A DNA stretch of 64,000 bases from Hirudinaria manillensis. Its lineage: Eukaryota > Annelida > Clitellata > Hirudinida > Hirudinidae. The notes below the pieces were generated by a model. It was not told where the DNA came from, made no database searches, and saw only the letters and a program-made list of their open reading frames with translations. This document shows, one piece after another, positions 98 through 20,867 of this stretch. The stretch lies in NCBI GenBank assembly GCA_034509925.1, contig CM067528.1, positions 2,593,501-2,657,500 of the forward strand. Reading direction: 5' to 3'. The first letter of the stretch is position 1, and each line of letters begins with the position of its first letter. The position numbers and the translations under genes are program-made.

Positions 98-895
98 TTA
101 CACAGAACTCTTTCGACTCGCAACAATGAGTTCACAACTCATAAATCCGTATCCGTCATGGGAGACTTTCCTCAAGGCTCTTTCCATTTCTTCATGGTCA
201 ACGACTTCCTTGTGGCTATAGTGCGTTATGAAGTAAAGGTCTTTGTCATATTCTTTCATATCAATTCTAACCGTGTACGGTACAATTTTATCAAAAGTGA
301 CAGATATATCGTTCAATTCTCCTCTTATTAGGGTGGTGTCTTGAAACGGCCTCATTTTATCGGCAAGTACCCGATGACAGTTGTACATGACGTAGTCCTT
401 AGAAGGATTAAGGACAACGAGTTTACCTTTGCTTGGTTTGAGCCAAAAATCAAAACAAAGTCCGAAAAATTCCCGACGATCAACGGAATTCAAGAATAGA
501 AGACTGTGAAACGATGCCACGACGTCCAATTTGTTCTGAAACTTTTCGCTAACTTCGTCTTTCATAAATTCTTCGATCGACATTTCGTAAATTTCAAATT
601 CAACTTTATCGCCGAAACAGTTCTTCAAATTTGGCACCAGTTCCTCAAGGCTGTCGTGGTCTTTATCGACAATGATTAACTTCTTCAAATTGGTAAAATA
701 TTGGAAGAACTCGATGTCGTACTGTCCATATCCTGTGCCAACAGAGAGGGCTATTTCACAGTCTTTGGCAAAGCTTTCATTTGTGGCCACTTCTTTTAAA
801 ATGGGCCTCAAAACTTCAAATTCATCGTGCCGTTGACGAAATTTTTTCAAAGTTTCCGGATAGGCTTGTGAGTACGGATCAGGTTGGGATGACAT
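98..895 (-). CDS. HNMT-like SAM-dependent methyltransferase, copy 1 (divergent)
   Basis: This intronless 265-aa frame encodes a predicted cytosolic class I methyltransferase that would transfer a methyl group from S-adenosylmethionine to an unknown small molecule. The SAM-binding glycine loop is SVGTGYGQ (residues 51-58). The acidic residue ending strand 2 lies in IIVDKD (about 74-79), with Asp where the other copies have Glu. The strand-4 block DVVASFHSLLFL corresponds to the HNMT segment that contains the histamine-contacting Gln, but His stands in the aligned place. It is the most diverged copy: it lacks the EDFMNENRNLSS block shared by the minus-strand siblings and has EEFMKDEVSEKF instead. 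The first in-frame Met, followed by a YPETLKKFRQR helix as in the siblings, is taken as the start. The methyltransferase call is firm; the substrate is unknown. Confidence 0.8.
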   Translation of the reverse strand: MSSQPDPYSQAYPETLKKFRQRHDEFEVLRPILKEVATNESFAKDCEIALSVGTGYGQYDIEFFQYFTNLKKLIIVDKDHDSLEELVPNLKNCFGDKVEFEIYEMSIEEFMKDEVSEKFQNKLDVVASFHSLLFLNSVDRREFFGLCFDFWLKPSKGKLVVLNPSKDYVMYNCHRVLADKMRPFQDTTLIRGELNDISVTFDKIVPYTVRIDMKEYDKDLYFITHYSHKEVVDHEEMERALRKVSHDGYGFMSCELIVASRKSSV

Positions 896-2445
896 GCTGC
901 CAGTTCTCAGTTCTCAGTTCTGGAAAATCAAATTCTCTTTGAACGCAGTACTGAAAAATAAAACAACAAGATTCATTTCCAAACAACAATTTATAGAGAA
1001 GTTAACATGGCAAGGATGACCTTTTGATCTCTTAAAAATGCTTATGCACTTTGCCAATTCGTACGGTTTAAGTCTGCACTTAAAAAATCTCTTAAGCCGA
1101 GATTTGACCTTTGAACTGTTTATTATATAACCTTTTTATGGTTAAAAAAAATGACATCTGCCTGAACTCCAACTTAAAACTAGGTTAAAAAAATGTTAAA
1201 AACAATTCAAATGTTTTTATTTTCTTGATTTTTAAAGCTAATTGCTTCTCTAAGACAGACGAAGTATGCGCCCTTTGGTCGCCCGCAATTCACCATTAAC
1301 TTAAAGTATTACATAAAAGGCATTTTAAATTATTCACTATGAAATCTATTGCGATAATTTAAGAAAATTGCTTCGAATATTTGTGTGAATATTCTTTCAG
1401 GTATTTATCTAAAAAAAATTGATTTTTTTTAAATTTAAATTTTATTTTTTTACATTTGATTTACACAAATTTGAAGTTCAACAATTGACAAACCACATCC
1501 GAACTTCTGGACGATGTCTGGTCAAAGTCTGTCAAAACCATCTTCAATAGCCTCTTGTTTTCGAAGAAATAGTTTTAAAAATATTTTTATCTTGCTGATG
1601 CCTTTGACCTATGTGTAAGCTTTTTATGTTCTTCCTTACGTGCTGATATTTTACTAAAAAAATATTTTTTCTTTTTAATATAAGATAAATGACGAAATAT
1701 TTTTGAAATTAAGCTAAATTTTAAAGTAATGTTTATGCAATTATATATCGGGATATCTTACTAAGAGTGATTTCCTGATTTATGTCTTCATTTCTTTAAT
1801 TCAAAGGAAACACTGTGTTGAGATTCAATTATATTTTATTTGTAACATCAATAAGTTGGATTCTGAGATTACAGACGGCTGAAAAATTACTGTAAATCGG
1901 ACTAATTATTATTAAAAGTATCTATGGCTTTTTGAAATAAAATATAATTTAAGAGTCGACTTTTATTAATTCGAAAATTGGTATCTTTCACCAAGTCGCA
2001 CAAAATGTTTCCTGTGCTGCGAAAAGTCAAAGCCAGGACTTGATTTTATCTTGGCGTGAAAATAATTTGTCAAAAATCAAAACAAATGTGAATTCTTCGA
2101 AAAAAAAAATCAAAGCAAAGAATATAAAATGCCGAGTAAAGCATTATATCGTTCAACCAATCTCTGCTTTCGTCCCATTTTGTTTCGAATCCAGTAAAAG
2201 TCATTTATGAAATTTAAATTGGCACGTTAGATTGACAGAAACCACCGGGCCGAGTTAAATAAAATAATTTAGTTGCATAAAATAATTTAAACCTATAACG
2301 TGTTAAAATTCTTTAATAAAATTTGGTTAATAAAAAATTCGTTATCTTTTGAAATGGAGGAATAAAAGGCAGTTGATGATAATTAATAAAACGATTAATA
2401 TTTTAAAAATCTTCAAATTAAATTAAACAACTTTCAAGAAGAATT
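896..2445. other. AT-rich intergenic region
   Basis: Apart from the TATA box of copy 1 at its left end, no gene, RNA or mobile element was recognised here. Runs of A and T are common, and short frames are closed quickly by stops on both strands. The promoter of the RING-H2 gene must lie at the right end, but no clear core element was seen. Confidence 0.5.
988..995 (-). promoter_or_regulatory. TATA box of methyltransferase copy 1
   Basis: The minus strand reads TATAAATT, 93 bp upstream of the start codon. The same box is found upstream of most array members. Confidence 0.5.
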
Positions 2446-3045
2446 ATGAGAGTTTATAAATTGAAACGCGCCGAAATTCGTAAGTATAATTCGTTGTTAC
2501 AAAACAAACATTAATAAAAATGATAAAATTTATTTATCATTTATCTGCGAGCAGCGTGAAGGAGTGAAATAAATCACCGAAAATGCTAAATGCATAAATA
2601 AATAAATAAAATAATAAAACATTAAATTAATTAATTAACATGCATTTTTCTCTTCCAGGTTCTTTGTCAGGCGTCTGTCCAATTTGTATCGACGAATTCA
2701 AATGCGAGGAAAAAGTTTGCGAACTTCCCTGTCAACACGTGTTTCATCTTTCTTGCATTGCGCAGTGGTCACAAAGGGTTGGTTTTTTGAACGAGTTTCG
2801 TTGAAATTAAAATCTTTTAGTTGCTAATTTGTTTAATTTTAAATGATTTATAGGCAGATACTTGTCCGACATGCAGAATACCCGTGGAGTTCAAGATTTC
2901 AGAATTGAAAAAACTCCCGGAAAGACGAAAGAATTCTATTCAAGGTATATCAAATATATACCATAAACATCCAAGAGTTGGTGGTATTGGAATTATTCTC
3001 GATGTTTTGTTTGATTGCGTTGAACGTTTGCTACGAAAACCCTGA
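2446..3045 (+). CDS. Small RING-H2 E3 ubiquitin ligase, three exons
   Basis: Exons are 2446-2479, 2659-2777 and 2854-3045, joined by GT-AG introns of 179 and 76 bp. Splice phases agree: codon CGT is split across intron 1, and intron 2 is phase 0. The predicted protein is 114 aa. After a short basic start (MRVYKLKRAEI) comes a C3H2C3 RING-H2 finger: CPIC, then CQHVFH, LSC, a Trp and CPTC. Such fingers bind two zinc ions and recruit E2 enzymes, so a ubiquitin ligase role is inferred. The C-terminus has a basic KKLPERRK stretch and a hydrophobic tail (GGIGIILDVLF) that could touch membranes. The donor of exon 2 (GTTGGT) is weak. The gene lies between methyltransferase copies 1 and 2 on the opposite strand. 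The exact family is not recognised. Confidence 0.82.
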
Positions 3046-3709
3046 GATGTTATGAACTTAGTTTCCCTGTCCAGTCTTTCATTTGAACAAATGAAAACAA
3101 TTTCGTTTGGCAGAAAAATAAATTTATGTTTATACAAATGTTTTAAAGTATGTGCTTGGTATTATGAACGACCAATGTTTGGCTTAGACCAGATTTAAAT
3201 GATATTTGCTTTGCAATTCATTCAATAAAATCTTCTCATTCTTAAATATCTGTTATTACGAATTGAATAGTCTGATAAGCGATATCAAGTCCTTTGTTGC
3301 ATATATCAAAACAGCCAAACATATTTGCAAAACATAACCAAGAAGATAAGTGATGATCACGAGTGCAAATAATCTCTCCTATCTTCTTAAGTTCTGAATG
3401 TGGAAATATTATGTTTATTAAATAAAAGGAAAACATCCATCATATTCAGGATCCTTTCTGATGATCATCTTCAATGGCAATTCTAAAATTTAAAAAAAAG
3501 ATTTAAAATTGCCAGGATTGTATCGCTTCTATTTAATTATTATTATAATTAAAATTGTTGAACGCAGTTATAATATCCACTATACATATGATATAATATT
3601 TTGCACATAAATATGTAATTTATGTATAATTTATATTAACTGGTAAAATATACGCAATATAATTAATTTAAAATGGACCAACCACTGTACAATCAATTCA
3701 TTCATTAAT
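3046..3709. other. Intergenic region between RING-H2 and methyltransferase copy 2
   Basis: This holds the 3' UTR and poly(A) signal of the RING-H2 gene and, at the right, the 3' flank of copy 2. No other feature was recognised. Confidence 0.5.
3224..3229 (+). terminator. Polyadenylation signal of the RING-H2 gene
   Basis: AATAAA lies 179 bp after the RING-H2 stop codon on the same strand. Confidence 0.5.
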
Positions 3710-4516
3710 TCAGAATCTAAATATGCAACTGACCAATATCGAATTCCTCTTTTGTACGACAAAAAGTTTACAAACACCTCGTCCCATGCCGTCGGGGCAT
3801 ACCTCCTCCAAGGCCTTTCTGATCTTTTCTTCCGTGATATCACGATTGATGGCATTCATCATGCCGTACAAGCCAATGTTTGACTTTGTGAAATCAAATG
3901 TGTAGTTATAAGTCTTTTCGATAATAACGTCCAGTCGTAACTCCTTTATTTCATTCTTCATTCTCTCTGCATCTGGAAATGAATCCATTTCCTCGGTGGC
4001 TTTGTTGAAGACAGTTACGAAAATGTTTTTCTTCGAAGGATTAGAAGTGATAAGCATTCCTTTGTTTGGTTCCAACCATTGGTCAAAGCACAACTTGATT
4101 AGATCTTGGCGAGTTTCTGGAGTTAAAAAATGGAGAACATAAAAGGCCAGAACCAAGTCTATTTTTGATGAAAGATTTCTATTTTCATTCATAAAGTCTT
4201 CGATCCTTGCTTCGTGGTATTCGATTTCAATTTTATCTCCGAAAGCATTTTCCATGTTGACTTTCAACTCTCTCAGGCAGTTTGGATCTTTTTCTACGAC
4301 AATCAACTTGTGGAGGTTTGGAAGACAGCATTTGATAAATTCAATTTCAAGCTCTCCATAACCTGTTCCAATGGACATACAAGTCCTGACAAATTGGAGA
4401 GATTGCAACTCATTTGATATTTGACTGTTAGCAGATCCAAATGTTTCTACATGATTCGATGTCAGACGAAAATGTTTGAGCGCCTCCGGATAACTATAAT
4501 TCACTTCTGTATTCAT
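3710..4516 (-). CDS. HNMT-like SAM-dependent methyltransferase, copy 2
   Basis: A 268-aa intronless frame. The SAM loop is SIGTGYGE (48-55) and the strand-2 acidic residue lies in VVEKDP (73-78). The array block ARIEDFMNENRNLSS follows, then the strand-4 block DLVLAFYVLHFLTPE. The N-terminal helix SYPEALKHFR resembles copies 9 and 10 more than copies 4-8, and its 5' UTR resembles that of copy 9, so copies 2 and 9 form one subgroup. The C-terminus runs past the usual VVQKRN end by about nine residues (ILVSCIFRF), a tail related to that of copies 5 and 8. A small-molecule methyltransferase is inferred from the HNMT resemblance; the substrate is unknown. Confidence 0.85.
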   Translation of the reverse strand: MNTEVNYSYPEALKHFRLTSNHVETFGSANSQISNELQSLQFVRTCMSIGTGYGELEIEFIKCCLPNLHKLIVVEKDPNCLRELKVNMENAFGDKIEIEYHEARIEDFMNENRNLSSKIDLVLAFYVLHFLTPETRQDLIKLCFDQWLEPNKGMLITSNPSKKNIFVTVFNKATEEMDSFPDAERMKNEIKELRLDVIIEKTYNYTFDFTKSNIGLYGMMNAINRDITEEKIRKALEEVCPDGMGRGVCKLFVVQKRNSILVSCIFRF

Positions 4517-4573
4517 TTTGAAAACCTTTTAGAAATTACAATCCGTTGAAATTGCTCCAATTGCAGATCTTCA

Positions 4574-4581
4574 TATTTATA
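4574..4581 (-). promoter_or_regulatory. TATA box of methyltransferase copy 2
   Basis: The minus strand reads TATAAATA, 58 bp upstream of the start codon. It matches the box before copy 9 in sequence and spacing. Confidence 0.6.
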
Positions 4582-4929
4582 CGGATAGGGTGAACGACTG
4601 TTTATCTCTACCGTGGAATTGGACTATGATTCTTAATTTTTTTTAAACTCGTCGAATGTTTTGAAACAAATTCCGACGACATAAAAACAAACAGTTAAAT
4701 AAACGTGGTCAATAATCACGTCTGACAGTTCTTAGAAAATACCGTCGCTTGTAACAAGTAAGGATGCTGGGAAATATAAATATTATTTAGGCTTTAAAAT
4801 TATAACTATGCTTGTCATCACATTAAATCAGGTGATTTTTATTGACATAATTTAATGTAAATTACAACCTAATGATTAAATATACCTTATTTTTCAAAAT
4901 AATTATTTTCAGCAATCAACAAGAATAGC

Positions 4930-4930
<1 letters not shown>

Positions 4931-5021
<91 letters not shown>
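4931..5021. repeat. (AAT)n microsatellite, about 30 units
   Basis: An uninterrupted trinucleotide run about 415 bp upstream of copy 2. Reading frames through it (poly-Ile, poly-Tyr) are artefacts. Confidence 0.95.
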
Positions 5022-5024
<3 letters not shown>

Positions 5025-6212
5025 GTTGCTCGATCATAATATAATATAGTGTTACTTGTACAAAATATATTATCATGACATATGATAATAACATACAATG
5101 TAATTGTAGTAATATATATTTACCTTATTATTTTTCTTTTTTAATGAGTTTCTTCAAATCAAAGAGAAAAATAAAAATTACCTACAAATTCACTGAGAAG
5201 GTAACAAATAAATTTATATTTTATATTAATTTGAATAAACATTTCATAATTAAACAATTGTTTATTTGCATCATAGCATTTATTTGTAAAACATTTTTAA
5301 TCATATAAAATCAATCATTATTACTAATAAATATAAATATAATAAATATATTTAGTTCATAATATAACAAATTTAAAAATTTATTTTTTATTTTTTTACG
5401 GCAGCTGTTGAACTTTGTTTTTCTCAAAGTTCATCGACCATTGACCTATTTTTTTGCACCCCGATAAAAAGATTTTAATTAAATTTATTTCTTATTCGAA
5501 TTATGGCATAGCTGCATATATACATATAATAATATTATTATTATTATTACTATACATATTATATTATAATAATTTTTATAATATTGGTAAATATATTTTG
5601 AACGTTAAGCAATATATCTATTAATCTTTTTTTAATTAGGAAACGATTTTAAAATCAGAGATAGATTTTCGTAAATTTTGTATTAAGAGGTGCTATTTCT
5701 TAGCACTATTTAACACCCTTCGGTTTTATAAACTCCTAAGTAAAATTATGAAAGAAAATGTAATCTTAATTATTTTTGAAATTACAACAATGCATCTGAG
5801 TTTAAAGTAAATATAAAATTATTTATATAACTCTTTTATTCATTAATTAATGTAATAAATATGATAGATTGAATTTTAAAATTGAGCAAGTATTATCCTA
5901 AAGCCTAGGTTTATGTGAATTTATTTTTTCCTTCCAATCACATTTTTATTTTACTTGTAAAAACTGAACTTAAGGATGATTTGCAGAGCAGGCAGGGTGG
6001 ACCCTGTAAGCATTTGTCAGTATTCGTATAAAAGAAAGTCTCAACTCTATCTTTGTTTACGGCCTCAAGTAACACTTTAGTTATGCACTGCAATGACTGA
6101 GATTCCCTATGGAATTATCCTGCAATAATTATCATAAATATTGTTGACGTTGGGAAGCGTGGTCTCAAAGCCAATTAGTATTCAATTTGAATTTTATACT
6201 CGAATGAATTTA
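5022..6212. other. AT-rich intergenic region
   Basis: Nothing recognisable apart from short AT-rich palindromic stretches around 5520-5580. It ends where the methyltransferase fragment at 6213 begins. Confidence 0.5.
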
Positions 6213-6340
6213 GCGTGTTGAATCTCAATCCATTTCAGACACTTTGGATCTTTCTAAGACAATCAAAGTCTTGAGTATTGGAAGGCAGTACTTGATAAAC
6301 ACAATATGAAATTCTCCGTATGCAGTTTCAATTGATGCAC
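6213..6340 (-). pseudogene. Methyltransferase fragment (copy 3, decayed)
   Basis: About 128 bp on the minus strand aligns by eye with the part of intact copies that encodes the SAM loop through the VVEKDP and LRELKVNM blocks. Frameshifts and substitutions destroy the frame. A matching decayed segment lies at about 10783-10860, followed by the same flanking sequence, which places this fragment at the left edge of the duplicated module. Confidence 0.65.
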
Positions 6341-6567
6341 ATTGCAAACACATTTTTATTAAAAGATTTATTTATTTCAAATTCGGGAAAAAAGTAATAT
6401 TTTAAATTTTTTCAATTTTGTAACAGATACCGTAACAACATTAGAAAGTTATTCACTCTTGTTTCCATTTATTATTTGTTCTGAAAAAGCTGAACAATAA
6501 AAATAAAATGTAAAACTAAATATAAAATGTTTATGCCATAGGAGCAAAATGAGAAACCAAAATATGA

Positions 6568-6600
6568 TTATTTCTGTGCCTTCTGAACAATGCAGTATGT
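6568..6600 (-). pseudogene. C-terminal relic of a methyltransferase
   Basis: The minus strand reads TYCIVQKAQK and a stop, resembling the LFVVQKKK end of intact copies. It stands alone about 320 bp downstream of copy 4, with no adjoining coding sequence. A T-rich stretch ending in TAG lies just upstream on the coding strand. It has an equivalent at 11086-11118. Confidence 0.35.
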
Positions 6601-6923
6601 GATAAATCTTTTTCTTCACTATTAAATATAAAAATTAATTAAAAATAAAGCAAAAATAAAAATTAAATTAATTTATGAAATTATGTATAAAATATAACAT
6701 CTACATACTGGTTAAATCAATTAAAATATCACTAATCATTATTGTGATTGGATGGTGCATGACAACATCAATGTAATTCTTATTTCGTTTATAAATAGTA
6801 TAAATAATAAATAATATAATAATTATCATTCATAAGACAGATTGAATCAAACCTATATTTATACTGCATTTACAAAATATAATGAATTCAATATCTAAAT
6901 GCAAATAAACTAACTAACGTAAT

Positions 6924-7697
6924 TTATTTCTTCTTTTGAACGACAAAAAGTTGATGATGGCCCTGACTATTACCATCAGGACATAGTTCCTCGAAGGCCT
7001 CTCTGATTTTTTCTTCTGAGATGTCACGGTCGACAGCTCTCATCATACCATATAAATCTTTGTCATACTCTCTGATGTCCATTGTATATCTAAATGTCTT
7101 CTCAACAATAAGATTCAGGCCTAAATCCATCATTTCATTCTTCATCTTCTCTGTGTCTTGAAATTCCATTTTCTCGCTGACGTTGTTATAGACAGTTACA
7201 AAGTCGTTTTGCTTTCCTGGACTGGCAAGGATCATAATTCCTTTGTCGCTTTCGAGCCATTGGTCAAAGCACAGCTTAAGCAGATCTTTTCGATTTTCTG
7301 GAGTCAAAAAGTAGAGAACGTATAAGGCAAGAATCAAATCTACTTTTGATGAAAGATTTCTGTTCTCATTCATGAAATCTTCAATCCTTGCTTCATGGTA
7401 TTCGATTTCAATTTCATCACCGAAAGCCTTTTCCATGTTGACCTTCAACTCTCTCATGCAATTTGGATCTCTCTCTACGACTATTAACTTCTCGAGCCTG
7501 GGAAGGCAGCGCTTGATAAATTTAATTTCGCTACCCCCGAATCCAGTTCCAATGGACAAACAGGTCTTGACAAATTGGAGAGATTTGACTTCATTCGACA
7601 GTTGATGGTCAATTTCTTCAAGTACTTCTGGAATATTGCATCTTTTTAGGAATCTTTTGAACGCCTTTGGATAGGTCAAAATTTCCTGTTCATTCAT
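6924..7697 (-). CDS. HNMT-like SAM-dependent methyltransferase, copy 4
   Basis: A 257-aa intronless frame beginning MNEQEILTYPKAFKRF. The SAM loop is SIGTGFGG (48-55) and the acidic strand-2 residue lies in VVERDP (73-78). The shared ARIEDFMNENRNLSS block precedes DLILALYVLYFLTPE. The aligned position of the HNMT histamine-binding Gln is Tyr. It ends in VVQKKK without the extra tail of copies 2, 5 and 8. Its closest relative is copy 7 (11441-12214): coding sequence, TATA box and several hundred bases of both flanks match, so the two are products of one segmental duplication. The substrate is unknown. Confidence 0.86.
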   Translation of the reverse strand: MNEQEILTYPKAFKRFLKRCNIPEVLEEIDHQLSNEVKSLQFVKTCLSIGTGFGGSEIKFIKRCLPRLEKLIVVERDPNCMRELKVNMEKAFGDEIEIEYHEARIEDFMNENRNLSSKVDLILALYVLYFLTPENRKDLLKLCFDQWLESDKGIMILASPGKQNDFVTVYNNVSEKMEFQDTEKMKNEMMDLGLNLIVEKTFRYTMDIREYDKDLYGMMRAVDRDISEEKIREAFEELCPDGNSQGHHQLFVVQKKK

Positions 7698-7750
7698 CTG
7701 TAAAACGGTTTTGAAGTCCTTTGAGTAACAAATGGTGTTTGTTTGTTACA

Positions 7751-7758
7751 AATTTATA
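7751..7758 (-). promoter_or_regulatory. TATA box of methyltransferase copy 4
   Basis: The minus strand reads TATAAATT, 54 bp upstream of the start codon, at the same spacing as in duplicate copy 7. Confidence 0.6.
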
Positions 7759-7965
7759 GCAGTGAAAATGAACGACGACCCCAAATATTTCTTATTCTAA
7801 TTAAAAGAAAAATTAAATAAAAAATAAGGTGCTTGTAAGAGAGGCGTGGCTAACTAACCACAAAGTCCAAAGTTGTTTTGTACTGCTGTTATTAATTACA
7901 CTATTTAACAAATTTTTATTTTTGATTTATCCTTCCCTTAATAAGGGACTCTTCAGTTTGATGTT

Positions 7966-9032
<1,067 letters not shown>

Positions 9033-9833
9033 CTAAATTAAACAACTGACCAAAAGCGGATTCGTTTTCTGCACGACCAAAATTTGACAAACACTTTTGC
9101 CCTTGCCATCGGGGCACACTTCCTTCAAAGCCATTCTGATCTTTTCTTCTGAGATACCACAGTTGAAAGCCACCATCATACCATATAAGTCCGTATCATA
9201 CCTTTCTAAGTCAATTGTAAACTTGTAAGACTTTTCATTAATAATATCAAGGTCCAAATCTTTTATTTCATTCTTTAGCATCTCCGCATCTTGAAATGAT
9301 TCCATTTTCTCGGTGGCTTTATTATGCACAGTTACAAAATCATTATTCTTCGAAGGACTAGAGAAGGTAAGCATTCCTTTGTCTGGTTCTAGCCATTGAT
9401 CAAAACACAAATTGATTAGGTCCTTGCGAATTTTTGGAGTTAAAAAATGGAGAACATAAAAGGCAAGAATCAAGTCTACTTTTGATGAAAGGTTTCTGTT
9501 TTCATTCATAAAGTCTTCGATCCTTGCTTCATGGCATTCGATTTCAATTTTATCTCCGAACGCATTTTTCATGTTGACCTTCAAATCTCTCAAACAACTC
9601 GAATCTTTCTCGACGGCTATTAACTTTTCGAGGTTGGGAAGGCAGCATTTGATGAATGTGATATCGTTAGCTCCTAATCCAGTTCCAATGGAGAGACAGG
9701 TCTTGACAAATTGGAGAGATTTCACTTCATGCGACAGTTGATTGTAAACATTTTCGCTTACTTCTGCATCATCGCATCTTCCAAGAAACTTTCTGTACAC
9801 CTCTGAATAAGTTAAACTTGCTTTTTCGTTCAT
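9033..9833 (-). CDS. HNMT-like SAM-dependent methyltransferase, copy 5
   Basis: A 266-aa intronless protein starting at MNEKASLTYSEVYRKF. The frame is open for 21 further codons upstream, but those residues have no counterpart in the siblings. The SAM loop is SIGTGLGA (48-55), followed by VEKDSS, the shared ARIEDFMNENRNLSS block and DLILAFYVLHFLTPK. It ends in VVQKTNPLLVSCLI, an extended tail shared with copy 8 and the broken copy 6. Copy 8 (12689-13501) is its duplicate partner. The TATA element has drifted. The substrate is unknown. Confidence 0.85.
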   Translation of the reverse strand: MNEKASLTYSEVYRKFLGRCDDAEVSENVYNQLSHEVKSLQFVKTCLSIGTGLGANDITFIKCCLPNLEKLIAVEKDSSCLRDLKVNMKNAFGDKIEIECHEARIEDFMNENRNLSSKVDLILAFYVLHFLTPKIRKDLINLCFDQWLEPDKGMLTFSSPSKNNDFVTVHNKATEKMESFQDAEMLKNEIKDLDLDIINEKSYKFTIDLERYDTDLYGMMVAFNCGISEEKIRMALKEVCPDGKGKSVCQILVVQKTNPLLVSCLI

Positions 9834-9903
9834 TATTAAAATTAATTTGAAACTTTGTATTGGCGAAAGTTCTTTATTTCGCATATAAGAAAACAAGAGA
9901 CAA

Positions 9904-9912
9904 CTTTTTATG
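9904..9912 (-). promoter_or_regulatory. Degenerate TATA element of methyltransferase copy 5
   Basis: The minus strand reads CATAAAAAG, 71 bp upstream of the start, where partner copy 8 has TATAAATT. This suggests weaker or altered core promoter function. Confidence 0.3.
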
Positions 9913-10227
9913 TAAGTTTCGAAAAATAAAAATATGAATTTTGAAGTGGGGCGGCATTAAATTAAAAGATCGAGTTCAAAGTTTTCATTTGCAGGGCTGA
10001 TGCAACTGCTATTATTTATTTTTTACATTTATTCCAGGCCATGTAAACTGCCATGCTTTATCGCATCAATCTGTTTAAATGGAGAAGGATTACATCATTT
10101 TTAACAATCTATTAACTATTTTTCAACGGTGTCTTGATAGTAAATCATTTAATTTTTTGACACTCAGTTGCAATGAGAAATACTCTCATAAAAAATTCGA
10201 TAAAACATTTACTTGGTAATGTCTGTG
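9913..10227. other. Intergenic region
   Basis: AT-rich, with no gene. The stretch around 10090-10200 weakly resembles 8450-8600, suggesting shared 3' flanks of related copies. Confidence 0.4.
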
Positions 10228-10860
10228 TTACGAATATTTATGTTTATATTTGTGCCATGAAATAAGCTGAAAAAAAATTTGAAATGAAATTAAACAACTG
10301 ACCAAAAGCGGATTCTTTTTCTGCAGGACAGAATTTTGACAAACAACTTTGCCCTTGCCATCGGGGCACACTTCCTTCAAAGCCATTCTGATCTTTTCTT
10401 CTGAGATACCACAGTTGAAAGCCACGATCATACCGTATATGTCAGCATCGTACCTTTCGAAGTCAATTGTAAAGTTGTAAGTCTCTTCAGTAACAATATC
10501 AAGGTCCAAATCTTTTATTTCAATCTTTAGCATCTCCGCATTTTGAAATGAATCCATTTTCTCGGCAGCCATATTGCATGCAATTATAAAATCGTTATTT
10601 TTCGAAGCATTAGAAACGATAAGCATTCCTTTATCAGGTTCCAACCATTGGCCAAACCACATCTTGAACGATATTTTCGATTTTCTGGAGTCAAAAAGTG
10701 GAGAATGTATAAGGCAAGAATCAAATCTACTCTTGATGAAAGATTTCTGTTCTCATTCATGAAATTTATCGTGTTGAACTTCAACTCATCTCTGACGGTT
10801 TGAGTCTTTCTACGAATATCAACTTCATGAGTTTTGGAAGACAGCACTTAATTGATGTAC
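10228..10860 (-). pseudogene. Broken HNMT-like methyltransferase, copy 6
   Basis: The C-terminal half is open (WFGQWLEPDKGM to VLQKKNPLLVSCL) and closely resembles copies 5 and 8. At about 10662-10680 a small deletion relative to copy 8 shifts the frame. The block MNENRNLSSRVDLILALYIL continues in another frame. Upstream of it (about 10760-10860) the SAM-loop region is shortened, frameshifted and partly missing, ending in sequence that matches the fragment at 6213-6340. No complete SAM site remains, so the gene is inactive as a methyltransferase. Confidence 0.85.
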
Positions 10861-11440
10861 AATGTAAACACATTTTTATTAAAAGATTTTTTTATTTAAA
10901 ATTCACAAAAACGTGATATTTTAAATTTTGTCATTTTTGTACAAGATACGGTAACAACATTAGAAAGTTATTTTTATTGTCTATATTTATTATTTATTAT
11001 GAAAAAGCTGAACAATAAAAATAAAATGTAAACCTAAATATAAAATGTTTATGACATCGGAGAAAAATGAGAAACCGAAATGTAATTACTTCTGTGCCTT
11101 CTGAACAACGCCGTGTGTTATAATTTGTTTTCTTCGCTATTAAAAATAAAAATAAATTAAAAATAAAAATCAAGTTAATTTATAAAATTATGTATAAAAT
11201 ATAACATGTACATACTGGTTAAATCAATTAAAATATCACTAATTGTTATTGTGACTGGATGGTGCATGACAACATCAATGTAATTCTTATTTCGTTTATA
11301 AATAGTATAAATAATTTATAATAATAAATAATATAATAATTTTCATTCATAAGACAGATCATAAGACACCTGTATTTATATTGCATTTGCAAAATATAAT
11401 GGATTCAAAATTTAAATGCAAATAAACTAACTAACGTAAT
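10861..11440. other. Flank duplicated from 6341-6923
   Basis: Close base-by-base similarity to the interval left of copy 4, including a long near-identical stretch from about 11200 to 11330 (compare 6700-6830). It marks the body of the segmental duplication and contains the relic at 11086-11118. Confidence 0.75.
11086..11118 (-). pseudogene. C-terminal relic of a methyltransferase
   Basis: The minus strand reads THGVVQKAQK and a stop. It is the duplicate of the relic at 6568-6600 and lies at the same distance (about 320 bp) downstream of the next gene. Confidence 0.35.
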
Positions 11441-12214
11441 TTATTTCTTCTTTTGAACGACAAAAAGTTGATGATAACTTTGGCCATTGCCATCAGGACA
11501 CAGTTTTTCCAAAGCCTCTCTGATTTTTTCTTCTGAGATGTCACGGTCGACAGCCCTCATCATACCATATATGTCCTTGTCATACTCCCTGAAGTCAACT
11601 TTATGACTAAATGTCTTCTCAACAATAATATTCAGGCCTAAATCCCTCATTTCATTCTCCATCTTCTCTGTGTCTTGAAATTCCATTTTCTCGCTGACGT
11701 TGTTGTAGACAGTTACAAAGTCGCTTTGCTTTTCTAGACTGGCAAGGATCATAATTCCTTTGTCGGGTTTGAGCCATTGATCAAAGCACAGCTTGAGCAG
11801 ATCTTTTCGATTTTCTGGAGTCAAAAAGTAGAGAACGAAGAAGGCAAGAATCAAATCTACTTTTGATGAAAGATTTCTGTTCTCATTCATGAAGTCTTCA
11901 ATCCTTGCTTCGTGGTATTCGATTTCAAATTTATCACCGAAAGCATTTTCCATGTTGACCTTCAACTCTCTCATGCAGTTTGGATCTCTCTCTACGACTA
12001 TTAACTTCTCCAAGCTGGGAAGGCATCGCTTGATAAATCTAATCTCGCTACTCCCGAATCCAGTTCCAATGGACAAACAGGTCTTGACAAATTGTAGAGA
12101 TTGGACTTCATTCGACAGTTGGCAGTCAATATCTTCGAGTACTTCTGGAAGTTTGCACCTTTTTAGAAATCTTTTGAACGCCTCTGGATAGGTCAAATTT
12201 TCCTTTTCATTCAT
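11441..12214 (-). CDS. HNMT-like SAM-dependent methyltransferase, copy 7
   Basis: A 257-aa intronless protein starting at MNEKENLTYPEAFKRF. The frame stays open 29 codons upstream but crosses the TATA box, so that part is not coding. The SAM loop is SIGTGFGS (48-55), then VVERDP, ARIEDFMNENRNLSS and DLILAFFVLYFLTPE. It ends in VVQKKK. It is the duplicate of copy 4, with amino-acid differences concentrated in the N-terminal helix and the C-terminal half. The substrate is unknown. Confidence 0.86.
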   Translation of the reverse strand: MNEKENLTYPEAFKRFLKRCKLPEVLEDIDCQLSNEVQSLQFVKTCLSIGTGFGSSEIRFIKRCLPSLEKLIVVERDPNCMRELKVNMENAFGDKFEIEYHEARIEDFMNENRNLSSKVDLILAFFVLYFLTPENRKDLLKLCFDQWLKPDKGIMILASLEKQSDFVTVYNNVSEKMEFQDTEKMENEMRDLGLNIIVEKTFSHKVDFREYDKDIYGMMRAVDRDISEEKIREALEKLCPDGNGQSYHQLFVVQKKK

Positions 12215-12267
12215 CTGTAAAACGGTTTTGAAGTCCTTTGAGTAACGAATGGTGTTTGTTTGTTTCA

Positions 12268-12275
12268 AATTTATA
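12268..12275 (-). promoter_or_regulatory. TATA box of methyltransferase copy 7
   Basis: The minus strand reads TATAAATT, 54 bp upstream of the start codon, as in copy 4. Confidence 0.6.
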
Positions 12276-12688
12276 GCAGTGAAAATGACCGACGACCCCA
12301 AATATTTCTTATTTTAATTAAAAGAAAAATTAAATAAAAAATATGGTTCTTTTAAGAGAGGCGGGGCTAACTAACCACAAAGTTCAAAGTTTTGTACTGC
12401 TGTTATTAATTAAACTATTTAACAAATTTTTATTTTTGATTTATCCTTCCCTTGATAAGGTTATTTTCTTATTATTTAGGTCAAAAAATAACAATAAACA
12501 CTAATTATTTCTTACTGAGTGAGTACGGCCATACATGTTAAAAAATACGTTACCAAACTACTGAATTGAAATACTTATCCTTATTATATACGTATATCAC
12601 CGTAACAATGTTTAATTTTTATTTATTGATAAAATGTAGTGATTTCAAATATTTTATCTAGTCCGAATAAAGACCAAATATAGTAAAT
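12276..12688. other. Intergenic region with module junction
   Basis: Similarity to the copy 4 flank ends near 12465, at the point where the AAAT array starts in the left module. From about 12570 the sequence resembles the 3' flank of copy 5 (about 8920-9032). Confidence 0.55.
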
Positions 12689-13501
12689 TCAAAATCTAAA
12701 CGCAATTAAACAACTGACCAAAAGTGGATTCTTTTTCTGCACGACATAAATTTGACAAACACCTTTGCCCTTGCCATCGGGGCACACTTCTTTCAAAGCC
12801 ACTCTGATCTTTTCTTCTGAGATACCGCAGTTGAAAGCCACCATCATACCGTATATATCCGTATCGTACCTTTCTAAGTCAATTGTAAAGTTGTAAGTCT
12901 TTTCAGTAACAATATCAAGGTCCAAATCTTTTATTTCATTCTTTAGCATCTCCGCATCTTGAAATAATTCCATTTTCTCGGCAGCCATATTGTATACAAT
13001 TACAAAAACGTTATTTTTCGAAGCATTAGAAACTATAAGCATTCCTTTGTCTGGTTCCAGCCATTGGTCAAAACACATCTTGAACAGATCTTTTCGATTT
13101 TCTGGAGTCAAAAAGTATACAACGAATAAGGCAAGAATCAAATCTACTTTTGATGAAAGATTTCTGTTCTCATTCATGAAATCTTCGATCCTCGCTTGGT
13201 GGTATTCGATTTCAATTTTATCACCGAAAGCATTTTCCATGTTGACCTTCAACTCTCTCAAACAGCTCGAATCTTTCTCGACGACTATTAACTTCTCCAG
13301 ATTGGGAAGGCAGCATTTGATGAATGTGATTTCGTTAGCTCCGAATCCAGTTCCAATGGAGAGACAGGTCTTGACAAATTGGAGAGATTTCACTTCATTC
13401 GACAGTTGATTGTCAACATTTTTGCTTTCTTCTTCATGATTGCATCGTCCAAGAAAGGTTTTGAATACCTCTGAATAAGTTAAACTAGCTTTTTCGTTCA
13501 T
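12689..13501 (-). CDS. HNMT-like SAM-dependent methyltransferase, copy 8
   Basis: A 270-aa intronless protein starting at MNEKASLTYSEVFKTF. The 33 open codons upstream cross the TATA box and are excluded. The SAM loop is SIGTGFGA (48-55), then VVEKDS, the block ARIEDFMNENRNLSS, and DLILALFVVYFLTPE. The extended tail is VVQKKNPLLVSCLIAFRF. It is the duplicate partner of copy 5 and the best intact relative of broken copy 6. The substrate is unknown. Confidence 0.85.
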   Translation of the reverse strand: MNEKASLTYSEVFKTFLGRCNHEEESKNVDNQLSNEVKSLQFVKTCLSIGTGFGANEITFIKCCLPNLEKLIVVEKDSSCLRELKVNMENAFGDKIEIEYHQARIEDFMNENRNLSSKVDLILALFVVYFLTPENRKDLFKMCFDQWLEPDKGMLIVSNASKNNVFVIVYNMAAEKMELFQDAEMLKNEIKDLDLDIVTEKTYNFTIDLERYDTDIYGMMVAFNCGISEEKIRVALKEVCPDGKGKGVCQIYVVQKKNPLLVSCLIAFRF

Positions 13502-13568
13502 CTGTAAATTTATTTTGAAATTTTGATTGACGAAAGGTCTTCGTGTGAAAATTGTGTTCTTTAATCCA

Positions 13569-13576
13569 AATTTATA
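13569..13576 (-). promoter_or_regulatory. TATA box of methyltransferase copy 8
   Basis: The minus strand reads TATAAATT, 68 bp upstream of the start codon. Confidence 0.6.
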
Positions 13577-14735
13577 GTAATAGATGTAAACGAGACTCAA
13601 CTATTTCTTCCTACGTTAGTAGAAACATGAACGTTGAAGAGTGGTGGTCTTAAATGAAAGAAATAAGTGCAAAGTTTGTTTGCAAAGCAGCTGTTTTTAA
13701 TTAGTTTTTGTATTTATTTCACGCAAACTCTACATTGCTACTTACTGTGGATCAGCCCTGTTAAAAGAAAGGAGGTTGAGTAATTATAAAAGTTTAATTA
13801 TAAATTATTATATCCTTGGCTACCAAATGTTATTGATTTTGGGCTAAACTATTATTAATCTTATTGTTAATTTTTATATGACACAATTGTCATTGGATGA
13901 CCCAAGAGTGTGTATATTAAACCCAAAATAATACTTTCCGCGGATTATATTGATTTTTTTAAGATTAAAAATGAAAATATTGGCTTTCAATTTGTCAAAT
14001 GGCTTCCAACATCCAAGTGACTAACACGCAAGCCTTGATCCCGTTGTGTGCTTGTGTGCTGTTGTGTGCGCCCTCCAGTTGAACGTCGTCAGGGACAATG
14101 ATGATGACCACGATGATGATGATGATACTCATGGTGATTATGGCGATGCTAAGGTGATGGTGATGATAGTGATGGTTGCGGTGATGGTACTGTTTTGATA
14201 TTTTTTAATTTATTTTAGTTATAAAAGACAACGGATAAATATCATTTTGATTATTTAATTCTTGCAGACAAAATTATTTTTCTAAAATTTCTTGGTGAAA
14301 GCATTAAGAAAGAAACTAAATATTGCTCATGTTTTTCCAAAAATATATTTTACATAACGCAGAATGTATGTATCTTCTTAAAGTCAGTCAAATCATCATT
14401 AAATTAACTTTAAATCTAAGACAAAACAAAGCTAAAACCATCAATGTCACAGCAACATCAATATCCTATGCAAACTAAGGCAAATGAAAAAGTTGTTTTA
14501 ACATTCAGGATAACTTCTGCAGATATCTTCACCCGCCCATCTAAAGATAGAATTGATTTTTTTTTTTTAGAATTCAAACCTTAAAATATAAAGGCATGAT
14601 TTAGAAAAGCTAGATTTATGAACATTAAAGAACATAGTAATCTCAACAGGCTTATATTTATTATAATGTATTCTGCACACTAATTATGTCAACAGCCAAG
14701 TCTAAAATCAAATTAAAAAAATAACTCACCAAACA
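13577..14735. other. Intergenic region with an imperfect GATGRT tract
   Basis: No gene recognised. An imperfect GAT-rich run lies at about 14095-14190. The rest is AT-rich single-copy-looking sequence, plus the 3' flank of copy 9. Confidence 0.5.
14657..14662 (-). terminator. Polyadenylation signal of methyltransferase copy 9
   Basis: AATAAA on the minus strand, 74 bp downstream of the copy 9 stop codon. Confidence 0.45.
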
Positions 14736-15521
14736 TTAATTCTTTTTTTGAACGACAAAAAGTCGACAAACACCTAGACCCCTGCCATCAGGGCACACCT
14801 CCTCCAAGGCCGTATTGGCCGTTTCCTCTGTGACGCCATTATTGATGGCCCTTAGCATGCCGCACAAACCCGTGCCAAACTTTCTGAAGTCAAACGTGGA
14901 GTTGTAAGTTTTCTCGATGACAATATTCAGGCCTAATTCTTTTACTTCGTTCTTTATTTTTTCCACGTGCTGGAATGTTGCCGTTTCCGCCATGGCTTTG
15001 TTATAGAGGCTAGCTAAAACGTGATTCTTCGATGGATTGCAGAGTACAAACATTCCTTTTTCTGGTTCCAACCATTGGTCAAAGCACATCTTGAACAGAT
15101 TCTTGCGACTTTCTGAATTCAAAAAGTAGAGAACGTAAAAGGCAAGAACCAAGTCTATTTTTGATGAAAGATTTCTGTTTTCATTCACATAGTCTTCGAT
15201 CTTTGCTTCGTGGTATTCGATTTCAATTTTATCTCCGAAATCATTTTCCATGTTGACTTTTAACTCTCTCAGGCAGTTTGGATCTTTTTCTACGACTATC
15301 AACTTGTTGAGATTTGGGAGACAGCATTTGATAAATTCAATCTCAATTTCTCCATATCCGGTTCCAAGGGACATGCAAGTCCTGACAAATTGAAGAGATT
15401 CCAGCTCATTCAGCAGCTGATCCCTAGTTTCTCCAAATGTTTTGACATGATCGGATCTTTGACGAAAACCTTTGAGCACGTCTGGATAAGAAGAACTTTT
15501 GTGCAATGTTTCTGTATTCAT
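14736..15521 (-). CDS. HNMT-like SAM-dependent methyltransferase, copy 9
   Basis: A 261-aa intronless frame starting MNTETLHKSSSYPDVLKGFR. The SAM loop is SLGTGYGE (51-58), then VVEKDP, the slightly diverged block AKIEDYVNENRNLSS, and DLVLAFYVLYFLNSE. It ends in VVQKKN. N-terminus and 5' UTR group it with copy 2 rather than the duplicated module. It is the last minus-strand member before the orientation changes. The substrate is unknown. Confidence 0.85.
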   Translation of the reverse strand: MNTETLHKSSSYPDVLKGFRQRSDHVKTFGETRDQLLNELESLQFVRTCMSLGTGYGEIEIEFIKCCLPNLNKLIVVEKDPNCLRELKVNMENDFGDKIEIEYHEAKIEDYVNENRNLSSKIDLVLAFYVLYFLNSESRKNLFKMCFDQWLEPEKGMFVLCNPSKNHVLASLYNKAMAETATFQHVEKIKNEVKELGLNIVIEKTYNSTFDFRKFGTGLCGMLRAINNGVTEETANTALEEVCPDGRGLGVCRLFVVQKKN

Positions 15522-15575
15522 TTTGAAGACCTTTTAGGAATAATAACTTGTTGTAATCGCTTCGACAATTCTTTA

Positions 15576-15583
15576 TATTTATA
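15576..15583 (-). promoter_or_regulatory. TATA box of methyltransferase copy 9
   Basis: The minus strand reads TATAAATA, 55 bp upstream of the start codon. Confidence 0.6.
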
Positions 15584-17084
15584 ACGATGGCGGAACTTCC
15601 GCAGTAGAGTTGATCGATGATCCCAGTTTGTTTTTTTCTTTTTTCCTTCGAATTCATTCGAAAATATTCTTTAAAAAAACAAGCGTAAAAACACTGCCTA
15701 AGAAGATGTTGGGATGTTCTTTGAAATGTCATCATTTCATTCACGCAAAGTTACTAAGAAACATTATGTTTTAAGTTTATTTTGTACATTTAAGTTAATT
15801 TATTAGCTATTTTATATGACATTTTATTATTTATACAATAAATGTTATTAATGGACGTTAATAAGTTATACCACTCATTCTTCATATTACTCATTATTAC
15901 ACACAAACGTATATGTAAATAGTACAAGTTCCTGCCTAATACAATAATACTTAAAATTATAATATTTCAAATTATAATATTATATTGTTTTCCTCGGCCC
16001 AACAACTCTGTAACCTCATAAACATATTCATTGTTGTACTTGGAACGCCTTCCTTAAGTAAATTCAGATGACATCTTTTTCTCAGCCGGAGAAAAACATT
16101 TAAAAAGATTAATTATCTCGACTTAGATAATGCATACGGGATGGTTTTAGAATTTCAAAGTACAGAGGACGTTGTACCCAGATCTAAAACAAAGTCTTGA
16201 TCTAAATTGCGGTCGTAGGACTTCGTTTAAATTTAAATTATAATATCAAAATAATACTCAACAATAATTACTGTCGCAATGTAGCAATTCCCCCCCCCCA
16301 CATTTTGAAATTATAATTCAAAGATTATATAGAAATAAAAAAATAATAACAAAATTAAAAATAATACCATCTCTTTGGTATTGTCATGACGACGACAAAA
16401 ACAAGTAATTTTCCAATGATCGTTGTTGGAGAGACTTCAAGAAAAAGTCTGGAGATGGTGAAAAGGTTTTATGTTTTAACCCTAATTTGACCTGGTCTGA
16501 CCTTTTTAAATGATCAGCCATTTTGTTCTATTTACATTTAAACTATTAGAAAGAAATATCACTGGGTATTGCGCAGTTGAAGCTTTATGAATGAAAACAA
16601 CATTCTCAGGCCCGCGGGCCACAGGGGGGCCGTGACAAAAATTTCAAATTTTAGTAGGAGATCTCATAAAGTCGTACGAAATAGAGAAGGCTGGAAAAAC
16701 AAAGACATGTTTTTATCTAACTTATTATCGTTGTTAACCATTTAACTTACCATTATTATTATTTTTATTATTATTATTTTATTTTATTTTATTATTATTA
16801 TTATTATTATTAATAGTAGTATTATTTAATTATTAAAAACGTAAGGCTCAAAATTGTTTGAATGACGGTGAAGATACATGTTCAGAACAACGATCTGCTT
16901 TCAATCATTTCTTAATGAATCAAATAAAAGTCCACCAAATAAAAATATACAAAAGTCAAAAACAACCTGTTGTCGGAGATTGCATCCAATCAAAGTCCTT
17001 GGTTAAACCTTCTTTTAGGACAGGTCACGCCCTTAACTCACACCACTGTAATTAGTATAAAATTACTAAAGGCAATTAGCATAA
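15584..17084. other. Intergenic region between divergent copies 9 and 10
   Basis: No gene recognised. A run of ten C lies at 16290-16299. A GC-rich palindromic patch (GGCCCGCGGGCC) near 16611 is reminiscent of termini of some hAT transposon remnants, but no partner end was found. ATT-rich runs occur at about 16753-16815. Confidence 0.45.
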
Positions 17085-17236
17085 TAATAATATTATTATT
17101 ATTATTATATTAATATGATTATTATTATATTAATATTATTATTATTATATTAATAATATTATTATTATATTAATAATATTATTATTATATTAATAATATT
17201 ATTATTATATTAATATTATTATTATTATATTAATTT
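17085..17236. repeat. 20-bp AT-only tandem repeat, about 7 units
   Basis: Units of about 20 bp built from ATTATTATATTAATAATATT are tandemly repeated. Each unit is close to self-complementary, so single strands could fold into cruciform-like hairpins. Confidence 0.85.
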
Positions 17237-17789
17237 TATATCATCATCCGTCAAATGACGGAGGACAAAGACTGTAAACTCTTACAATCACGAAATATTA
17301 TGACGTTATTTACACTTGATATCTTTATATAGCGAATAATTATTAGCTCTTCTGGCCTACTTTTGCAAGACTTCCAAAGGGTTGATTGACCTTTAGGCTG
17401 ACTTTTTAGGCCGCCCTATTAGGCCACGTGACGGCGTGTTGTGAAAAACAACAACATATTTGTCTTCTGAACCTTTTACTTCTTCATCTGTCCAATCATT
17501 CGTTCTCTGCCATCAATTGCCCGATTTTAGAATTTCGGCAGCCATTTTGATCCTAGAGTATTTTTCCAATATTTTTCTTAACGTCATTTGACCCGCCACG
17601 TGCGAGTGAAAATTTTTGTCAGGATGATGACGGTGATGATGGTGATAATAATAATAATTATGAAAAGATTATTGTTATTATTATTAAATTTTATCATTAA
17701 TAATTAGTATTATGTTAACTAGGGCTTAAACTCGTATTTAGTATAAATTATGTTTGAAATAATAAGAAATTTTTACAATTGCAGTTGTT

Positions 17790-17790
<1 letters not shown>
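17237..17790. other. Intergenic region
   Basis: No gene seen. A moderately GC-richer patch (17360-17620) has no recognisable coding potential. Confidence 0.45.
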
Positions 17791-18220
<430 letters not shown>

Positions 18221-18345
18221 GAGTCATAAAAATTAAAAATTTAAATTAAATGATTGCCTTTATAGCAATTTTTATCAATTAAACGTTTTTATACTGATCA
18301 TAATTAAATATCTGCTGTTAAAATAACCGCATTATTTAATTTACA

Positions 18346-18367
18346 ATAATAATAATAATAATAATAA
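18346..18367. repeat. Short (AAT)n run
   Basis: About seven AAT units between the TTTA array and the copy 10 promoter. Confidence 0.7.
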
Positions 18368-18496
18368 CAATAGACGCAATTTTGTTTTTCAAAGCACTAG
18401 CTCTAGCTTGACCTATGTATCTCCTACGTCACATCCTCAAGTTTTTGAGAAGATCTATGTCACTGATGAAGCACTTGCTTCATCTTGCTGGACAGG

Positions 18497-18504
18497 TATA
18501 AATA
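18497..18504 (+). promoter_or_regulatory. TATA box of methyltransferase copy 10
   Basis: TATAAATA on the plus strand, 78 bp upstream of the chosen ATG. It matches the boxes of copies 2 and 9 on the other strand. Confidence 0.6.
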
Positions 18505-18581
18505 CGGGGGAGACTGTCATTGTTTTAGTCGAAGCAACTCTTCTTAAACACAGAAATACTTCGAAGTATTATTTTTTCAGA

Positions 18582-19355
18582 ATGAACGCAGGAACTCTAA
18601 GTTACCCAGAGATGCTGAGAAAGTTTCGCCAGAGATCCAACGATGGCAAGGAATTCGAGGAAATTAAGCGTCAACTGAAAAGCGAATTGGAATCTCTCAA
18701 ATTGGTCAAGGCGTGCTTGTCTTTAGGAACGGGGTGCGGAGAGTTCGATATTGAATTCATCAGATGCTATCTTCCGAATCTCGAAAGGTTCGTTGTCATC
18801 GAGAGAGAACCTGACTGCCTGAGAGAATTGAAGGTCAACATGAAAAACGCCTTCGGAGATAAAATCGAAATCGAATATCACCAAGCAATGATCGAAGACT
18901 TCATAAACGGGAGCAGAAATCTTTCGTCAAAAGTAGATTTGGTTCTCGCTTTTTACATTCTCCACTTTTTCACGCCGGAGACTCGCAAGGATCTGCTCAA
19001 CTTGTCTTTCGACCGTTGGCTCGAATCGGACAAAGGGATGCTTATCTTCTGCGATCTGTCATTTAATAACGTCTTCGCAAGCATTTACAACAGAGCTCTC
19101 GATGAAAGAGATTCATTTCAAGACGTCGAGAGAATAAAGAAAGAAATGATGGAACTGGATCTGAACATCATCGCCGAAAAGACTTACGGCACCACCTTGG
19201 ACTTCACAAAGCACGATACGGACATATGCGCCGTCATGAATGCTATCAATCGTGGTATCACAGAGGAAGGAATCAGAGTGGCTTTGAAGGACGTGTGCCC
19301 TCAGGGCAGGGGTCAGGCCAAATGTAAACTTTTTGTCGTTCAAAAGAAGTATTAG
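18582..19355 (+). CDS. HNMT-like SAM-dependent methyltransferase, copy 10 (inverted)
   Basis: A 257-aa intronless protein. The frame is open from 18408, but those codons cross the TATA box at 18497, so MNAGTLSYPEMLRKF at 18582 is taken as the start. The SAM loop is SLGTGCGE (47-54), then VIEREP, the array block as MIEDFINGSRNLSS, and DLVLAFYILHFFTPE. The end is FVVQKKY. It is the only intact copy on the plus strand. Its synonymous codons differ widely from the minus-strand copies and are richer in G and C, so it separated early or escapes homogenisation. The substrate is unknown. Confidence 0.86.
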   Translation: MNAGTLSYPEMLRKFRQRSNDGKEFEEIKRQLKSELESLKLVKACLSLGTGCGEFDIEFIRCYLPNLERFVVIEREPDCLRELKVNMKNAFGDKIEIEYHQAMIEDFINGSRNLSSKVDLVLAFYILHFFTPETRKDLLNLSFDRWLESDKGMLIFCDLSFNNVFASIYNRALDERDSFQDVERIKKEMMELDLNIIAEKTYGTTLDFTKHDTDICAVMNAINRGITEEGIRVALKDVCPQGRGQAKCKLFVVQKKY

Positions 19356-20381: not shown

Positions 20382-20867
20382 TTAAACTCTCCGAAAAATC
20401 GTTATTAAAAAGACATTTTGAATTTCATCAATTACCCGCCGATATCCAGGTTCGATCATAACCCATGGCGTCCTTGCCTCGTTGTACAGGTATCGAACCC
20501 AGTGCGCGGAATACTGGAACATTGAGTACAATATTAAGAGTATGAAGACGATAATTTTGCCGAATATGTTAAGATCACTCCAAGTCTTGTCGCTAATGTC
20601 CGAGGGCTCTCTGCACATCGGACAAGTATCGTTCCGGTCTAACCAGCTTCTTATGCATTCGTAATGATATAGGTGCTTGCAATTGAGTTCACGAACTCTC
20701 TCGTTTAAAAGGAATTTTTCAAAACAAACGCTGCAACTCATTTCCTCGTCTACATGTTTTTGACAAATGCTCCGTCCATCGAAATCGAAATCGATCACGT
20801 CAATTCCCCCTTCAATCAGTGATTTGTTTCTTTCCTTCAGTTGTACGATTATCGGCAATCCTAACAT
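20382..20867 (-). CDS. Membrane-anchored RING-H2 E3 ubiquitin ligase
   Basis: A single-exon 161-aa frame. Residues about 45-86 form a C3H2C3 RING-H2 finger (CSVC, CKHLYHYEC, a Trp, CPMC), which coordinates zinc and recruits an E2. It is followed by a hydrophobic segment (FGKIIVFILLILYSMF) that should span or anchor in a membrane. An Asp/Glu-rich linker precedes the finger. Finger plus transmembrane helix suggests a membrane-localised ubiquitin ligase. The finger resembles that of the 2446-3045 gene in spacing, but the rest differs, so a family name is not assigned. It is head to head with ATG5. Confidence 0.85.
   Translation of the reverse strand: MLGLPIIVQLKERNKSLIEGGIDVIDFDFDGRSICQKHVDEEMSCSVCFEKFLLNERVRELNCKHLYHYECIRSWLDRNDTCPMCREPSDISDKTWSDLNIFGKIIVFILLILYSMFQYSAHWVRYLYNEARTPWVMIEPGYRRVIDEIQNVFLITIFRRV

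Follow-up and report, generated by a model that had tools for sequence, protein, structure and literature searches.

The stretch of Hirudinaria manillensis DNA analysed here, 64,000 nucleotides long and referred to as the window (C3:2593501-2657500 in the naming of the genome records), carries eight intact methyltransferase genes, c1 to c8, and two broken copies within 19 kb (Table 1). The first-pass annotation had described such a cluster of eight paralogs plus broken ones, and all eight intact frames were found and are homologous. The eight proteins, 257-283 aa in length, align over their whole length and conserve the SAM motifs; identity among c2-c8 is 53-86%, and c1 shares 32-35% with each of them. 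The listed frame of c4 probably starts 17 codons too early, judging from the ATG of its relatives, which ends at 9833. The proposed spread by tandem duplication is borne out by the two duplicated blocks that carry c3 and c5 (Table 1), and a second duplicated block relates c4 to c6 (970 columns, 86.0% identity). Purifying selection is evident in all 21 pairs of c2-c8, in which NG86 dN/dS is 0.21-0.35 (dS 0.20-1.38), so that the frames have been selectively kept and do not exist by chance. The motif TATAAAT starts 61-100 nt upstream of the ATG in seven of the eight array genes, c4 being the one that lacks it, and shuffled upstream sequences contained it on average in 0.33 of eight genes and at most in four. 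Among the 14 family members outside the window that were included in this comparison (all 15 except C7a3), three (C3s, C2s and C1t3) have TATAAAT, TATAAAA/G or TATATAA among the final 150 nt upstream.

Table 1. Members of the methyltransferase family and duplicated blocks. Positions without a record name are those within the window.
Feature	Position	Strand	Description
c1	98..895	-	intact single-exon HNMT-fold methyltransferase; E at HNMT position 28, H at 143
c2	3710..4516	-	intact; position 28 H, 143 Y
Broken copy remnant	6178..6341	-	
Duplicated block with c3	6330..7946	-	90.1% identical to 10850-12460 (1,627 columns)
c3	6924..7697	-	intact; position 28 I, 143 Y; twin of c5
c4	9033..9833	-	intact; listed frame to 9884; position 28 D, 143 Y; twin of c6
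Broken copy, frame shifted	10279..10882	-	10274-10765 matches part of c6 at 92% DNA identity
Duplicated block with c5	10850..12460	-	
c5	11441..12214	-	intact; position 28 L, 143 F
c6	12689..13501	-	intact; position 28 H, 143 F
c7	14736..15521	-	intact; position 28 H, 143 Y; modelled, top PDB match human HNMT
c8	18582..19355	+	intact; inverted relative to the other seven; position 28 D, 143 Y
C3s	C3:1637362		intronless single copy
C1s	C1:7499283		intronless single copy
C2s	C2:8212304		intronless single copy
C12	C12:6.081 Mb		one intron, after codon 90, phase 0
C5	C5:5.103 Mb		one intron, codon 153, phase 1
C1t1-3 (three genes)	C1:12.10-12.11 Mb		one intron each, codon 153, phase 1
C7a1-3 (three genes)	C7:1.956-1.968 Mb		tandem group; one intron, codon 203, phase 2
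C7b1-4 (four genes)	C7:2.473-2.483 Mb		tandem group; one intron, codon 203, phase 2, except C7b2

The array genes are free of coding introns whereas their neighbours are split, as had been noted at first pass: the Pfam domains UblA and UblB of ATG5 fall into two different open stretches, G6PD is likewise in pieces, with part of G6PD_C recognized, and of the putative RBM45 gene one RRM was found. Several further features of the locus were recorded. A hydrophobic C-terminal extension, LVSCI or LVSCL, is common to c2, c4 and c6 (3710-3745, 9033-9065 and 12689-12725) and is missing from the other five proteins; a long TTTA-type microsatellite at 17750-18229 produces a read-through frame of 159 aa with FIYL repeats, which is not a gene; and a RING-H2 zinc finger protein is encoded in a single frame at 20382-20900, between the array and ATG5.

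For this species, the Asian buffalo leech, a published assembly has 13 chromosomes of 14.76-8.30 Mb, nine small scaffolds and a mitochondrial genome of 15,581 bases (PMC10671345). In the mitochondrial record (C23), the first 4,000 bases carry cox1, cox2, cox3, trnQ and nad6, in that order. An ascidian origin, which the mitochondrial code had seemed to suggest, was rejected, since AGA falls on the Ser of HYVLSMG in cox1 and cox3-trnQ-nad6 is an annelid gene order. The genome (148,429,096 bases in 23 records) was searched with c7, c1 and an exon of C5, a search whose counts are lower bounds. The family comprises at least 23 intact gene models, eight in the window and 15 outside it, plus fragments on C7. 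One coding intron is present in 12 of the 23 models and none in the other 11; in C7b2 the intron lies at codon 200 (phase 2), and the start of this gene is three residues shorter than in the other C7 genes. No relative with several introns was found in the searches of the leech genome. Two side observations concern the dispersed members: C7a2 and C7a3 hardly differ from each other (dS 0.03), and their residue at position 143 is Y, not H, as in the array; and a family member at C1:12.1003-12.1037 Mb lies between very long trinucleotide repeats, with about 100 units per tract.

In the maximum-likelihood tree, c2-c8 form a single clade (100/99), which is joined by c1, C3s and C1s in an intronless clade of ten genes (98/96), with a weak grouping of c1 with C3s and C1s (82/63). 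The intronless C2s lies outside these ten; its branching relative to C12 and the C7 genes is unresolved, and the long branches there may mislead. Thus, the view of the eight genes as one array stands as far as homology is concerned, but they are not the product of one radiation, for c1 adjoins c2-c8 and falls outside their clade. The tree and the gene structures also bear on the earlier suggestion of an intronless, possibly retroposed, founder of the array, which was not supported: introns are lacking from C3s, C1s and C2s as well, and genes of the other subfamilies carry just one each, in three places that match in neither position nor phase, which indicates that the intron-poor state predates the array. 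This state may be ancestral in the family; the pattern fits three independent gains from an ancestor poor in introns, and it also fits many separate losses. A retroposed founder was therefore set aside as unproven, three dispersed copies being just as intronless. A recent transfer from bacteria was also set aside, since no relative appeared among 84,980 prokaryote species in what is a weak test, based on two degenerate and six exact peptide patterns.

We then asked the relationship of this family to histamine N-methyltransferase (HNMT) from structure and sequence. Two leech proteins, one of them c7, were modelled separately, and the top PDB match of both was human HNMT (1jqd/1jqe), with 238 residues matched at an rmsd of 3.5 and 2.9 and an identity of 10-16%; the HNMT fold, including its N-terminal helices and C-terminal strands, is present in the models. 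Juvenile hormone acid methyltransferase, EgtD, NNMT and NTMT1 have the class I fold and the SAM core of the leech proteins, but their structural scores are below that of HNMT for both models, and the top HNMT chain leads the highest-scoring enzyme of any other kind by 3.4 and 5.2 Z units. In addition, a family profile scored 46.2 against HNMT, while 100 shuffles reached at most 22.9; the C7 subfamily alone (23.9) and the C5/C1t group alone (17.5) were near or below that shuffle maximum. The alignment places E28 of HNMT on E, Q143 on H, the Gly of motif I on Gly and the acid that follows on E or D, and across the profiles tried one register is kept both by the Y..F..E motif at the N terminus and by the stretch around Q143. 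The leech proteins thus resemble HNMT in fold, in length, in the SAM motifs and in the N-terminal motif of Y15, F22 and E28, the last of which is E in c1 and in 11 of the 15 found elsewhere in the genome; they differ in that their identity to human HNMT is 10-16%, that the Gln143 position is H, Y, F or N, that Glu28 is replaced in c2-c8, and that their genes have one coding intron or none. The SAM core is intact throughout, with the motif I Gly at both columns in 23/23 and E or D in 23/23 at position 89, an acid that presumably acts in SAM binding.

Sequence signals taken singly were faint. A search of the leech genome with the single sequence of human HNMT returned no match, an empty result that is uninformative without a control; a search of the PDB with c8 as a single sequence returned none either; and HNMT was absent from the best 60 of 132 matches of a profile of the eight array proteins. 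An 11-member profile searched against the PDB retrieved HNMT at an E value of 0.011, below one archaeal methyltransferase and below calmodulins, whose matches to the family profiles were dismissed as chance because they span no more than about 30-45 columns at the C-terminal end. In Pfam, C5, C7b1, C7b4 and C1t3 (27.2 with neighbours) exceed the curated cut-off of 27 bits for Methyltransf_23 (PF13489), which is also the best-scoring family for human HNMT; C2s, C12 and the window proteins fall short of that cut-off, and NCBIfam gave sub-threshold methyltransferase matches only. Such faint signals, together with the 10-16% identity, are what a different class I methyltransferase family would predict, its fold having converged on that of HNMT or being simply common; however, the Z-score gaps, the constant register of the motif and of the Q143 region, and the four members that pass the Methyltransf_23 cut-off make that origin decidedly doubtful. 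As regards fold and profile, the HNMT-likeness seen at first pass is supported. Identity of this order, compared with 26-30% between HNMT proteins of deuterostome invertebrates and vertebrates (PMC3660329), leaves orthology unproven.

The residues aligned with the acceptor pocket of HNMT were compared between c2-c8 and the rest of the family. We take the pocket residues of HNMT that contact inhibitors, Glu28 among them, also to hold histamine. As described for human HNMT, inhibitors in the pocket form hydrogen bonds with Glu28, Gln143 and Asn283 and a hydrophobic contact with Phe19 (PMC9867436). Position 28 is acidic in all 16 leech proteins outside c2-c8, with E in 12 (c1, C3s, C1s, C2s, C12 and the seven C7 genes), the other four (C5 and C1t1-3) having D. 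Within c2-c8, Glu is lost in 7/7 and the acid in 5/7, only c4 and c8 having Asp. Position 143 is aromatic in 7/7 of c2-c8, and in the 16 others it is H in 11, Y in two and N in three; three further MAFFT settings yielded the same columns for positions 28 and 143. So that sites were not hand-picked, all 238 usable columns were scanned, and 27 proved to be of one chemical class in all 16 proteins outside c2-c8. Twenty of these are kept in all seven of c2-c8, and the three kept in no more than 3/7 are HNMT positions 19, 23 and 28, in the N-terminal helix, which holds only four of the 27 conserved columns (P 0.0014, for a region chosen after the fact). The pocket change is uneven, as the acid at 28 in c4 and c8 and the usual residues at 19 and 23 in c2, c7 and c8 indicate.

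A similar pattern is known from carnosine N-methyltransferase of birds (HNMT-like in birds and reptiles), described as a duplicate of HNMT that adjoins its relative and has altered pocket residues and a changed substrate (PMC3660329). The residues concerned are different, being Tyr147 and Cys196 in carnosine N-methyltransferase (PMC3660329) and 28 and 143, partly also 19 and 23, in the leech array. Position 147 is F in c1-c8, and the alignment to the C-terminal part of HNMT, with Cys196 and Asn283, is not reliable.

The helix that bears positions 19, 23 and 28 is also the fastest-changing part of c2-c8. Its dN is 0.435 and its dN/dS 0.61, compared with 0.194 and 0.24 for the rest of the protein; windows over it have the highest dN of 224, and codon permutation reached the observed difference in dN in 0/5,000 and that in dN/dS in 11/5,000 trials. 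In the C7 genes the helix dN/dS is not raised (0.21 versus 0.24), and the dN difference was reached in 77/5,000 permutations. The helix of the C5/C1t group has a dN/dS of 0.64 versus 0.23, at a low dS (0.281) and over 29 codons, so that the array may not be alone in such helix change. Because the helix value in c2-c8 stays below 1, relaxed constraint has to be weighed: redundant copies whose substrate helix drifts, with no new function, would also account for the two broken copies within the array and for the heterogeneous substitutions at position 28. We nevertheless consider such drift unlikely, since in the same genes dN/dS is 0.20 for the SAM core and 0.26 for the C-terminal part, a TATA box lies at a similar distance in seven of the eight, and position 143 is aromatic in every one of c2-c8.

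A constrained SAM core, a helix that changes faster than any other part and the loss of Glu make a substrate shift with diversification the likeliest account of c2-c8. We therefore favour, as probable, the interpretation that these genes belong to a leech branch of the HNMT fold family of SAM-dependent, probably cytosolic, small-molecule methyltransferases in which c2-c8 have shifted and diversified in substrate. Judging from their altered pocket residues, seven of the eight array enzymes probably methylate molecules other than histamine, and c1 and the dispersed copies, all with an acid at position 28, would be the likelier handlers of histamine-like cationic acceptors. SAM would be bound in the conserved core and the N-terminal helix would close over the acceptor; altered helices may then select different amines or aza-heterocycles, and the array may serve as a small kit for detoxification or for methylation of specialized metabolites.

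The inactivation of histamine, or of another host amine, at the bite or during the blood meal would assign a single job to all the amplified copies, and it would suit a leech described as being in clinical use for its blood feeding, with an HNMT fold and with E28 and H143 in c1 and most dispersed copies. Against this stands the Glu28 column, which is not E in 7/7 of c2-c8 and differs among the copies. Moreover, none of the 23 proteins has a 12-residue hydropathy mean above 1.5 near its start, a crude count made without a signal-peptide predictor, so that secretion is not suggested. We accordingly regard one shared histamine-clearing role as quite improbable. As to histamine in leeches, about five group II decarboxylase genes were grouped by eye from 21 exon matches in the genome; the one at C4:5365540-5366500 reads PLSRRF, with a Ser that we take to mark histidine decarboxylase in sites of this type, and two on C7 read PLGRRF and PFGRRF, these three being the genes compared at this site, with others on C6 and C13. 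Histidine decarboxylase has been stated to be apparently missing in leeches (PMC7992859), and a review mentions histamine-like material in leech saliva (PMC8046405).

Returning to the substrate shift, a fuller picture can be offered tentatively: a protostome branch of HNMT with at least 23 genes in the leech, of which one array has left the histamine-type pocket and diversifies its acceptor helix for other amines or heterocycles, perhaps with products that are secreted, or detoxified, in blood feeding. HNMT has been identified in Deuterostomia, Acoela and Anthozoa, with many secondary losses inferred (PMC10244343), and the survey reported in PMC3660329 detected no hnmt-like orthologue in protostomes. 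Among the papers listed in our literature search for annelid or leech HNMT, none dealt with it, although published work on the subject may exist. The array is a natural experiment, in which a copy with the widespread pocket stands beside seven altered ones, and its genes are short, intronless and easy to express, which makes the substrate range of the HNMT fold directly testable. If orthologous, this large leech family of the HNMT fold would overturn the loss of HNMT in protostomes.
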